Assembly: GCA_012719455.1 (NCBI GenBank)
Contig: JAAYAJ010000005.1
Span: 1 to 32,940, forward strand
DNA: 32,940 bases
DNA from: Acidobacteriota bacterium
GTDB taxonomy: Bacteria; Acidobacteriota; UBA6911
Direction: 5' to 3'
Position 1 is the first letter of the stretch, and the number at the start of each line of letters is the position of its first letter. Positions 26,386-30,841 of this stretch are shown here, piece by piece. Below the pieces are notes generated by a model. The model had not been told where the DNA came from and made no database searches. It saw nothing but the letters and a program-made list of their open reading frames with translations. A program made the translations under genes and the position numbers.

Positions 26386-27168
26386 ATGAAGGAACATACG
26401 GCCATCGTCACCGGAGCTTCCAGCGGCATCGGGGAGGCGTTCGCCCGGCGCCTCCACAGGGAAGGATACCGCCTGGTCCTGGTGGCACGCCGTACGGACC
26501 GTTTGGAATCTCTAGCCCGCGAGCTGGCCCCCGCCGAAGCCCTCGGGGCCGATCTCGCCCTGGACGGGGAGATCGAGCGCGTCGCTGTCCGCATCGCCGC
26601 CGAACCCGGTCCCGCACTGCTGGTCAACAACGCCGGGTTCGGAGCTCCGGGCCGGTTCTGGGAAACGGACGCGCGGACGCTCGACCGGATGCACCGTCTC
26701 CATGTCCTCTGTGTCCAGCGGCTCACCCGGGCCGCCCTGGAAAAGATGGTGCCGGCGGGGCGGGGGGGCGTCATCAATGTCGCTTCGATATCCGGCTGCT
26801 TCCATGTCCCGGGCGCCGTCGCCTATGGAGCGACCAAGGCCTGGATCATCCACTTCACCGCGGGCCTCCACCTGGAGCTCCGAGGCATCGGTTCCCCGGT
26901 ACGCGTACAGGCGCTCTGTCCCGGATTCACCCGCTCCGGGTTTCACGAGGCGGCCGGGATGGTCGCCGCCGCCATCCCTCGGCCGCTCTGGATGACGGCC
27001 GAGGAAGTGGTCGACGCTTCGCTCCGGGCGCTCGGGCGCAACCACGCCGTCGTCTTCCCCGGATGGACCTACCGAATGACGGCGGCCCTGGGGCGCGTCC
27101 TCCCCCGCTTTTTAACCGACGCGGCTCTCCTCGCATACAGCCGCAGAACGAACACCCGCGACCGCTGA
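26386..27168 (+). CDS. short-chain dehydrogenase/reductase
   Basis: A 260-residue classical SDR that oxidises or reduces a hydroxyl/keto group with NAD(P)H. It has the cofactor loop TGASSGIGEAFA (residues 10-20), NNAG (81-84) and the catalytic triad Ser134, Tyr147 and Lys151 (YGATK). Arg residues after strand 2 (VARRTDRL) favour NADP. The C-terminus is slightly extended and ends with a hydrophobic/basic segment (MTAALGRVLPRFLTDAALLAY), as in the DltE/YqjQ-like or steroid-dehydrogenase-like groups. The substrate is unknown. It overlaps neither neighbour but sits eight bases after the methyltransferase stop. The ATG has a modest GGTAAGGCGCAGC context. Confidence 0.88.
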   Translation: MKEHTAIVTGASSGIGEAFARRLHREGYRLVLVARRTDRLESLARELAPAEALGADLALDGEIERVAVRIAAEPGPALLVNNAGFGAPGRFWETDARTLDRMHRLHVLCVQRLTRAALEKMVPAGRGGVINVASISGCFHVPGAVAYGATKAWIIHFTAGLHLELRGIGSPVRVQALCPGFTRSGFHEAAGMVAAAIPRPLWMTAEEVVDASLRALGRNHAVVFPGWTYRMTAALGRVLPRFLTDAALLAYSRRTNTRDR

Positions 27169-27237: not shown

Positions 27238-28962
27238 ATGAAAAGAGGATTGAGCCTGCTGCTGGTCCTGGGCTTCGTCGCCGCCGTTGTGTTATCCGGC
27301 GCCGGCAGGGACCGGGAGCCGAAAATCACCGTGCACAACCCGCTGGGGCAGCCCCCCGCGATCGCGCGTGTCCCCATGGCCCCCCGCATCGACAGCCTCG
27401 AGGGGAAAACCATCTACATCGTGGACATCGGGTTCACCGACACCCACCAGTTCTTCACCGAGATGCGCGACCTGCTGAGCTCCAGGTACCCCGCGACCAC
27501 CTGGGTGGTCCGGACCAAGATAGGCACCTATTTCGACGACGACCCCGCGCTCTGGGCGGAGATCAAGGAGAAGGGGCACGGCATGATCATGGGGATCGGG
27601 CATTGAAGCTCCTGTTCGCCGTCGGTCGTCGGCCACAGCTGGACAGTCGAAAAGCTTGGAATCCCCACCGCCCCGGTCGTCACCCGGGTGTTCGAGGAAC
27701 TCGTCAAAACCTACACCTTCAAGAAGGGGATGCCCAACCTGCGCTTCACCTTCGTACCACACCCGATCACGGGCATCCCGGCGGCCGCCTGCCGCAAGTT
27801 CCTCCAGGGGAACGACCCGCTGACGGGCAAGCCCGTCCTCGATGAGATCATCGCCGCCCTCACCCTCCCCCTCAGCGCCGAGGACTCCAAAAAAGGATTC
27901 ATCGAAAGGCCCACCCCCAGGATGGTGCCCCCCGACACGGAGGAGAACCTGCACCGCCTTTTCCTGGAAAACCAATGGACCGACGGTCTCCCCATCGTGC
28001 TGCCGACCGAGGCCCGCGTGGCCGAAATGCTCAAGGGGACCAGCCACGCCCCGGACGAGCCGGTGGGGAAAATGCAGCCCTCCTCCCCGCACGAAGCCTG
28101 GAGCTACGACGTGGAAAGGGTGGCCGTCAACGCCGTGATGGCGGGCGCCCGCCCGGAGCACCTCCCCGTGATCCTGGCCCTGGCCTCCACGGGGGTCCCC
28201 TCCCTGTACACCTCGACGACATCGTTCGCGCGCATGGTGGTGGTCAACGGACCCATCCGGAACGAACTCAGGATGAACGCGGGGATCGGCGCCCTCGGCC
28301 CGTTCAACCAGGCCAACAGCGTCATCGGAAGGGCCTGGACCCTGATGTCGATCAACCTGGCGGCCGCGGGAAAGGCGGGGGAAACCTACATGGGAAGCCA
28401 GGGGAACAACTACAACTACAACAACCTGTGCATGCCCGAAAACGAGGAGGAGCTCCCCGAGGGGTGGAAGCCGTTCCACGTGCAGTTGGGTTACAAGCCG
28501 GGGGAGAGCGTCGTCAGCACCTTCAACGGCTGGGCCTTCATCCACCCCGACCAGAGCTTCGGCAAACCGTTCCACGCGCAGATCCCGTTCTGGCTCAAGT
28601 TCGTCAGCCCCTTCTCCCCCGCCACGCTCCTGTTGGACCCCACCATCATCCACCAGCTCAAGGAGCGGGAGGGGTTCGACTCCAAGGAGCAGCTGATCGA
28701 GTGGATCCACAAGAACACGAAGGTGAGCGTCGGGGACTGGCTGGATAATTTCTACAGCGTCCAGAACTTCGTCCACCCGGTCGGGAGGAGGGGGGTGGAG
28801 CCTTACGCTTCCTGGCTCAAGCTCCCGCGCGAGGAGATGATCCCGCAGATCGCCAGCCCGGACAACATCCACATCCTGTCGGTGGGAGGGGGGACCAACC
28901 TCTTCTGGCAGGCGGGTGACTTCGGCCACGTTTCTAGCGCCTCGGTGGACAAGTGGCGCTGA
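27238..28962 (+). CDS. exported two-domain UGSC-like selenoprotein (in-frame TGA = Sec123)
   Basis: Read through TGA 27604-27606, this is one 574-residue protein. Residues 1-24 form a signal peptide. Residues 30-210 resemble the UGSC (seleno)protein family: NPLGQPPAIARVPMAPR, DSLEGKTIYIVDIGF, then MIMGIGH-Sec-SSC, VVGHSWTVEKLGIPTAPVVT and FVPHPITGIP. The redox motif is U-S-S-C (Sec123, Cys126) instead of U-G-S-C. Residues 235-574 are a second domain (NQWTDGLPIVLPTEARV, RVAVNAVMAGARPEHLPVIL, GNNYNYNNLCMPENEEELPE), usually encoded near such proteins; its function is unknown. The frame is continuous on both sides of the TGA, the downstream part has no ribosome site or suitable start, and a SECIS-like hairpin follows at once. 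AAAGGAG precedes the ATG. Alternative reading: a nonsense-mutated pseudogene, judged much less likely. Confidence 0.82.
27607..27640 (+). promoter_or_regulatory. bacterial SECIS-like hairpin after the Sec codon
   Basis: Directly after TGA the RNA can fold as AGC (27607-27609) with GCT (27638-27640), a TCC bulge, TGT with ACA (27613-27615 with 27635-27637), a small internal loop, then GCCG with CGGC (27618-27621 with 27630-27633). The apical loop is TCGGTCGT and begins 16 bases after the TGA. It contains GGTC, the loop feature that SelB recognises in Escherichia coli fdhF. The position and loop are as expected for a bacterial SECIS; the stem is short and interrupted. Confidence 0.62.
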
Positions 28963-28968
28963 AACACC

Positions 28969-28998
28969 GCCGCCGGGGCTGTCGACAGCCCCGGCGGC
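28969..28998. terminator. bidirectional palindromic terminator-like hairpin
   Basis: A perfect 30-base palindrome: GCCGCCGGGGCTG (28969-28981), loop TCGA, then CAGCCCCGGCGGC (28986-28998). It lies between the convergent selenoprotein and aldehyde oxidoreductase stops and can serve both. No T-run follows. Confidence 0.65.
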
Positions 28999-29002
28999 CC
29001 GC

Positions 29003-30841
29003 TTACAGGTCGGAAACCAGCTCGGCGAGCCCCAGTTCGGCGAGGCATTCCGGGGAAGGCTTCCCGGAGCGGACGTCCCACTTCATCTCGGCGAAGTACC
29101 CGTCGCGCAGCGCCCCATGATCGGTTTTCGTGGTGGACCTGATCCGCTTGGGAAGCTCGAACTTGTCCGGGGTGAGTCCTTCCCGGGCGTTGAACGCCTG
29201 GCGCAAGGTCAGGATCCGGCGCCCCGCCCGCAGGGCCTCCTCCCACCCGAAATCCCACCCAGTGGCCCCGGCGATCAGGTCGGCGATGGGAGGGGGAGCG
29301 GTGGCCACGGTATAAAGAGAACAGAGACCGGCGGCGTTCAGGAGCTGGTGGTAACTGCTTCCGATGGCATGCAGCGCGAACGGGCTCTGCCCGGAAGCCC
29401 GCAGCGCGGGGTCCGTTCCAATCGAGGCGCCCTGGGCCAGCATGCCGGAAATCTGGCTGTCCATGTGGTGCGCGGGATTGGCGTCGGCGATGTTCGCCGT
29501 GCCGAGCGCCGGGGATATCCGCGGGTCGTGGTAGGCCAGGCTCTTGCCGCGGATGGCGATGGCGTACCGCTCGGCCCCCTTGCCGATCCTCTCGGCCGCC
29601 TTCCCGGTCCCGTCGGCCAGCACCGCGCCGAACCCATCCCGCCGGGCGATCTTTTCCACCAGCTCGACGATGGCGTCGGCGTTTCCCCAGGAGAGATCCA
29701 GCCCGTCGGTGTCCTCCCTGCCGATCAGCCCCCTTTCGTAGCACTCCATCGCCATGGCGATCGTGCCCCCGACCCCGACGGTATCGATGCCGTAGCGGTT
29801 GCAGAGGTCGTTGGCCTTGATCACCGACTCCAGGTTGTCGTTCATCAGCATCCCGCCCAGGGCGGCCAGTGACTGGTATTCAGGGCGGTGCATCTCGTCC
29901 CTGATGGCGTAGCGCCCCTCCCCCTGCCGGATGATGGCGCCGCAGGTGATCGGGCAGGCATAGCAGCCGTAGCTGCCCACCTTGTACTTGTCCATGTTCC
30001 CGCTGTCCAGGTTCGAGATGGTGGGGAGGGCGTCGAGCCCGCTCAACTGCCAGTTCTTGAGGGGCGCGTCCCCGACGGCGACCAGGAAGCTGATGTTGTT
30101 GCCGGTCCCAGACCGGGAGAGGGCCCGGGCAAATTCGTTGGTGTCGATGATGGCCAGGAATTTTTCGAGCGCGGCGGCGAATTGTTCCGGGTCGGCGGGC
30201 CGGATGGCGCACGCTCCACCCCGGATCGCGACCGCCTTGAGGTTCTTCGACCCCATGACGGCGCCGACGCCGTTGCGCGCCGCGATCCGCCCCCGCTCGC
30301 TGACGATGCCGGCCAAAAGCGACCTGGACTCTCCCGCCGGGCCGATGCAGGCGATTTTGACCTCGGGATCCCGCAGCGATTCGTGCAGCCGGTCCTCCGT
30401 CTCGTAGGCGTCGAGGCCCCAGAGCTCCGAGGCGTCCCTCAACTCGGCGGCTCCGTCCCGGATATCAAGGTAAACCGGGCGGGAGGAAATCCCGGTGAAG
30501 AAGACGGCGTCGTAGCCCGCACTCTTGAGCTCGGGCCCCAGGGTCCCGCCCGAATTGGATTCGGCCCAGGTGCCCGTAAGCGGCGACTTGGTCACCAGCA
30601 TGTGACGTCCGCTGCCGGGGGATGCCGTCCCGGTCAGTCCCCCGACGACAAACCCGAGGATGTTTCCGGGCCCCAGGGGATCGGTCCCTGCCTGCATCCT
30701 TTCATAGAGGACGCGGACACCCAGCCCGTTGGCCCCCACGAAATGCCGGTAGACCTCGGCGGAGAGCCGCTCCTCGCGGATTTGACCTTGCGTGAGATCG
30801 ACATTCAGAATTTTGCCTGCGTAACAGCTGGGGATCTCCAT
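29003..30841 (-). CDS. aldehyde:ferredoxin oxidoreductase family protein (tungstopterin enzyme)
   Basis: A 612-residue AOR-family enzyme, which oxidises aldehydes to acids (or runs in reverse) with a tungsten bis-pterin and one [4Fe-4S] cluster, passing electrons to ferredoxin. The N-terminal domain shows YAGKILNVDLTQGQIR, FVGANGLGVRVLY and SPLTGTWAESNSGG. The cluster cysteines are Cys293, Cys296 and Cys300 (CYACPITC) with Cys507 in AAGLCSLY. Pterin-contact blocks GAVMGSKNLKAVAI, NRYGIDTVGVGG and IRGKSLAYHDPRISPALG are present. The length is typical (about 605-620). The C-terminus is intact. AGGTGAT precedes the ATG. The aldehyde substrate is unknown. It is a marker of an anaerobic life style and points to tungsten transport and molybdopterin genes elsewhere. 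Confidence 0.93.
   Translation of the reverse strand: MEIPSCYAGKILNVDLTQGQIREERLSAEVYRHFVGANGLGVRVLYERMQAGTDPLGPGNILGFVVGGLTGTASPGSGRHMLVTKSPLTGTWAESNSGGTLGPELKSAGYDAVFFTGISSRPVYLDIRDGAAELRDASELWGLDAYETEDRLHESLRDPEVKIACIGPAGESRSLLAGIVSERGRIAARNGVGAVMGSKNLKAVAIRGGACAIRPADPEQFAAALEKFLAIIDTNEFARALSRSGTGNNISFLVAVGDAPLKNWQLSGLDALPTISNLDSGNMDKYKVGSYGCYACPITCGAIIRQGEGRYAIRDEMHRPEYQSLAALGGMLMNDNLESVIKANDLCNRYGIDTVGVGGTIAMAMECYERGLIGREDTDGLDLSWGNADAIVELVEKIARRDGFGAVLADGTGKAAERIGKGAERYAIAIRGKSLAYHDPRISPALGTANIADANPAHHMDSQISGMLAQGASIGTDPALRASGQSPFALHAIGSSYHQLLNAAGLCSLYTVATAPPPIADLIAGATGWDFGWEEALRAGRRILTLRQAFNAREGLTPDKFELPKRIRSTTKTDHGALRDGYFAEMKWDVRSGKPSPECLAELGLAELVSDL

Follow-up and report, generated by a model that had tools for sequence, protein, structure and literature searches.

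A UGSC-family selenoprotein gene of an acidobacterium, with a predicted export leader, a remote relation to selenoprotein B, and many paralogs in its genus

The gene and its in-frame TGA codon

The window that we analyzed, a 32,940-nt stretch of an Acidobacteriota genome, carries at 27238–28962 of its forward strand one 574-codon gene with an in-frame TGA at 27604–27606. The two reading frames on either side of this TGA are in phase, as seen in both the sequence and its translation, and the second (27607–28962) runs from stop to stop and lacks its own start codon; the first GTG within it is at 27688. When the TGA is taken as selenocysteine (Sec), the gene is complete down to its true end at DKWR-TGA, and the 574-residue product displays U at residue 123 within the motif GIGH-U-SSC, with Cys126 as the partner of a UxxC pair. 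This bears out the earlier note on this DNA, which had joined the split frames into one selenoprotein gene. Together, the sequence, a profile match, and an AlphaFold2 model define three parts in this protein: a signal peptide, a UGSC (Sec) domain, and a C-terminal domain of the Unknown_1 type. A strong 13-bp hairpin is predicted directly 3' of the stop codon (28969–28998, forward strand), which is terminator-like and lacks a T-run. The neighboring genes encode a short-chain dehydrogenase (26386–27168) and an aldehyde ferredoxin oxidoreductase (29003–30841). A functional link of the gene to these neighbors was considered and dropped since the adjoining set is not shared by the genus orthologs examined, except the closest one (L168).

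We then considered how the TGA is decoded. A scan of bacterial genomes yielded 79 loci, and 66 of the 78 scorable relatives, from many phyla, have a TGA where the Sec codon is expected. Cys takes this position in six close copies from alphaproteobacteria and actinobacteria, so both of the residues that the earlier note proposed to look for at the residue-123 column do occur there, and a few others have Leu or Met. The TGA is kept in five orthologs from the same genus. Downstream of it, dN/dS is 0.06–0.17 between our gene and its four closest genus orthologs, indicative of strong purifying selection, and 0.48 for the most divergent ortholog, which may be a paralog. Close relatives ending in a true stop and showing no conservation beyond it, which would have spoken against recoding, are thus not what we found. 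The source genome also encodes the machinery whose absence would have done the same, with selA, selB, selC (tRNA-Sec), and selD all present, and each of nine other genomes of the genus has exactly one selB above the cut-off.

Two side observations concern these sel genes. A second, clustered selC-selD-selA-selB set is found at G000:C5:7081–14224 (loci L001, L018, L026, L035, and L037). Since no other genome of the genus has a second selB above the cut-off, this set was not counted as the genome's own, and the contig C5 may be contamination or may have been acquired recently. In addition, a SelD match at G000:C54:2390–3322 (L038) is interrupted by one in-frame TGA, which suggests that SelD is itself made as a selenoprotein.

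Downstream of the TGA lies a putative bacterial SECIS element, the hairpin GCCGTC-GGTC-GTCGGC (27618–27633, forward strand), with its loop at 27624–27627, which is proposed on the basis of its pairing and its recurrence in relatives. The core has five of six pairs and one T-T mismatch. The GGTC apical loop is as the earlier note described it, but the hairpin had been placed one base after the TGA, whereas its core starts 12 nt after the TGA and only an AGCT/AGCT outer pairing begins directly there. An unconstrained fold of this copy favors a structure other than the GGTC hairpin; folding predictions for relatives often do return that hairpin, which recurs across clades at a fixed distance from the TGA. 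Pairing in the Sec genes was 4.62, compared to a mean of 4.18 and a maximum of 4.48 in 300 synonymous resamplings, and in six Cys homologs the hairpin is mostly absent (mean pairing of 2.0 of 6). Because the shift in folding energy is small (mean z-score of −0.80 for 75 Sec genes, against −0.16 to −0.50 at other offsets) and covariation measured by arm permutation is weak (p about 0.03), we treat this modest signal as supportive only.

The presence of the Sec machinery, the exchange of TGA and Cys at one column, the purifying selection after the TGA, and the recurring GGTC hairpin make it very likely, as judged from sequence, that UGA 123 is read as Sec. If the TGA were a genuine stop, the locus would encode two products or be a pseudogene; under the standard code, translation from the ATG at 27238 would indeed end after 122 residues, and a GTG is available downstream at 27688. 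We consider this highly improbable, since the orthologs keep both the TGA and selection after it, relatives replace it with Cys, nine paralogs of the genome share it, and the Sec machinery is present.

Domain architecture, predicted fold, and relation to GrdB/PrdB

The Sec residue lies in a UGSC domain (PF24696; 27331–27798, forward strand), as the earlier note had proposed. Residues 32–187 match the Pfam UGSC profile with 97.3 bits, well above the gathering cut-off of 25, and U123 and C126 provide the UxxC pair with Sec or Cys in first place that typifies the family. In contrast, the score against NCBIfam NF041046 is 69.3 bits, under the 125-bit equivalog cut-off. The protein further departs from the described UGSC proteins by its U-S-S-C in place of U-G-S-C, its signal peptide, and its being one of ten such genes in the genome. 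The departure from U-G-S-C had been remarked upon previously, correctly, but it is one of many variants in the family, which include USTC, UDGC, UPGC, UGSC, USLC, and USQC. A second large domain, also anticipated, occupies about residues 229–574 (27922–28959, forward strand); it is defined by conservation and the model and has D249, P252, P256, T268, G338, G364, R365, G389, and E401 as invariant residues. This fusion is not new: a 2008 description (PMC2398784) reports UGSC fused to a domain named Unknown_1, ranks UGSC proteins among the most abundant environmental selenoproteins, and supposes a Trx-like fold for them. The C-terminal domain is presumably the same Unknown_1.

AlphaFold2 gives confident models (pLDDT 93.4 and pTM 0.90 for the full protein), which predict a flavodoxin-like alpha/beta fold for the UGSC domain, with Sec placed after strand 3 where a helix begins. 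The top 50 Foldseek matches of the N-domain model include no thioredoxin-like structure, and neither sequence search nor Foldseek with the full model or the N-domain returned a convincing solved relative, including for the C-terminal domain. Weak matches were to flavodiiron proteins, periplasmic binding proteins, and hydantoin racemase. According to the model, therefore, the Sec domain does not adopt a thioredoxin fold. These results bear on an alternative in which the protein is an exported thiol/selenol-disulfide or peroxide oxidoreductase that acts, like DsbA, Trx, or Prx, on proteins or peroxides rather than on a small carbon substrate. The UxxC redox pair, which is shared with thioredoxin-fold UxxC selenoproteins, would suit it, as would the fold supposed in the 2008 text and a 2026 review that puts UGSC among Trx-fold proteins (PMC13188914), but a Sec that follows the third strand in a sheet of flavodoxin type would not.

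Profile comparison points instead to selenoprotein B of glycine and D-proline reductases (GrdB/PrdB). We aligned the UGSC Sec domain by hhalign with a GrdB/PrdB profile, for which the GrdB-family sequences came from the relatives' genomes, and obtained a match of 95.5% (E 1.3e-8) that places Sec on Sec and has both UxxC and an E..GIPT segment in common. The match remained at 87% when the Sec and Cys columns were masked, whereas controls reached at most 4.1% (column-shuffled), about 1% (reversed), and at most 6.5% (other families). This supports, at the level of sequence profiles, the UGSC Sec domain being a distant homolog of the GrdB/PrdB Sec domain, which argues against the thioredoxin-like alternative. 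The protein is nonetheless distinct from GrdB/PrdB. Pfam GRDB (PF07355) does not match it up to E = 1, and its USSCSPS lacks the third Cys of the GrdB UxxCxxC motif. Its second domain is a different one, with no detectable relation by profile to GrdB or to the pyruvoyl subunit GrdE (0.3% with a two-sequence GrdE profile), and the protein is predicted to be exported. The earlier note missed this relation, as well as the genus-wide multigene family described below. In the literature searched, including passages from three papers that mention both GrdB and UGSC, the UGSC family and its two-domain fusion are already described, and we found neither the GrdB link nor the expansion in the genus.

Export, gene neighborhoods, and expansion in the genus

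Residues 1–23 (MKRGLSLLLVLGFVAAVVLSGAG; 27238–27306, forward strand) form a basic-hydrophobic leader, in line with the signal peptide noted before; its cleavage site is uncertain, and the model has a helix at residues 3–20 with low pLDDT. The other eight Sec paralogs of the genome also start with such a leader. By a simple hydrophobicity rule, 19 of 67 scorable relatives have a leader, some of them twin-arginine, and 48 have none, so UGSC family members would be found both inside and outside the cytoplasm. The protein itself is predicted to be exported, and to be periplasmic or membrane-facing. As a separate observation, the acidobacterial relatives L049, L053, L057, L059, L061, and L070 share a twin-arginine leader (RRKLLSLLG or RRKMLSLLG).

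A gene for a thioredoxin-reductase-like flavoprotein is nearby in 14 of the 79 loci, from several phyla, and often just 7–37 nt away. Such neighbors accompany 11 of 48 cytosolic relatives and none of the 19 exported ones. Since they belong to the cytosolic forms, any electron donor proposed for the exported protein is conjectural; the source genome encodes a full-length DsbD. Two other UGSC genes of this genome adjoin FAD_oxidored genes, a TonB-receptor-like gene precedes the UGSC-motif paralog in some members of the genus, and selA and selB are within 5 kb at three loci. In cytosolic relatives, partner genes of the thioredoxin-reductase type extend the likeness to GrdB/PrdB, glycine reductase operons also carrying thioredoxin-system genes. 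At one locus (L150; G007:C100:25000–44500), several UGSC-domain genes are clustered with a thioredoxin-reductase-like gene and with genes that, by their sequences only, are CaiB-, MaoC-, and DapA-like, in what looks like a catabolic operon.

The reductase neighbors would also be expected for the thiol-disulfide or peroxide oxidoreductase discussed above, but the large conserved second domain and the catabolic-type neighbors of relatives are at odds with it, and on balance we regard that alternative as unlikely, if still worth keeping in mind. The earlier note had suggested a periplasmic redox or selenol/metal-binding role, and our results favor the redox part and lend no support to metal binding. 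A protein that binds or detoxifies metals or metalloids through its selenol and thiol is conceivable because a periplasmic UxxC pair could hold soft metals; moreover, several family members come from MAGs labeled Zod, which we take to stand for the sulfidic Zodletone spring. We noticed no metal-resistance genes beside the UGSC family, though, and both the homology to a catalytic reductase domain and the dedicated flavin reductases that adjoin cytosolic relatives argue against such a role, which appears improbable.

How widespread is this gene within its genus? The source genome has ten UGSC-domain genes, nine of which contain a single in-frame TGA, located at the Sec column. All ten genomes examined from the genus have 10–27 such genes, compared to at most 2 in each of 386 other Acidobacteriota genomes (from a draw of 396), and a TGA is present in 127 of 146 same-genus matches by hand count among the matches listed. 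The gene and its relatives are mostly from metagenome assemblies, with genes called by a simple longest-ORF rule. The nine Sec paralogs are spread over several deep clades and are interspersed with relatives from other phyla. The set would thus have arisen through old duplications and transfers, and recent duplication within the lineage is rejected as its sole origin. The tenth gene (G000:C89:52778–53143, L034) has no TGA, Met at the Sec column, and no signal peptide, and it is followed by a FAD_oxidored gene.

A candidate function for the exported paralogs

From sequence, model, and analogy, we propose that the product of 27238–28962 is probably an exported Sec reductase of a GrdB-like kind, with a thiol relay that returns its UxxC pair to the reduced state. 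This builds on what was computed above, namely the read-through, the export leader, the fold, the remote GrdB homology, the reductase neighbors of cytosolic relatives, and the genus expansion; the chemistry, the periplasmic electron route, and the substrate diversity are inferred. The N-terminal domain, with its flavodoxin-like fold, would present the Sec123-x-x-Cys126 pair where a helix begins, and, by analogy with GrdB/PrdB, the selenolate would attack a bond in a small substrate that the C-terminal domain delivers. Release would follow as Cys126 forms a selenenyl-sulfide, which the relay would reduce again. For the exported paralog this relay might be of the DsbD type, in the periplasm, and for the cytosolic relatives it might be the dedicated thioredoxin-reductase-like flavoprotein. 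Paralogs with different UxxC motifs may handle different substrates.

A broader and more speculative reading, which we offer tentatively and hold to be less likely than the reductase role itself, is that the genus has assembled a large family of GrdB-related selenoenzymes, 10–27 genes in each genome and mostly exported, which act outside the cytoplasm and cleave various small substrates reductively. If true, this would be a selenium-based parallel to the families of exported reductive dehalogenases. The expansion of exported copies points to heavy selenium chemistry outside the cytoplasm and, together with the GrdB/PrdB link and the reductase neighbors, would turn UGSC, a family without known function, into a testable enzyme class.

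Finally, some UGSC-domain genes lack Sec altogether. Tandem arrays of paralogs without TGA are found at L151 and L152 (G008:C58 and G005:C67), and at L045, L060, and L111, UGSC-domain genes, two of which are without Sec, lie beside an apparent glycyl radical enzyme and its activase, both named from their sequences only.
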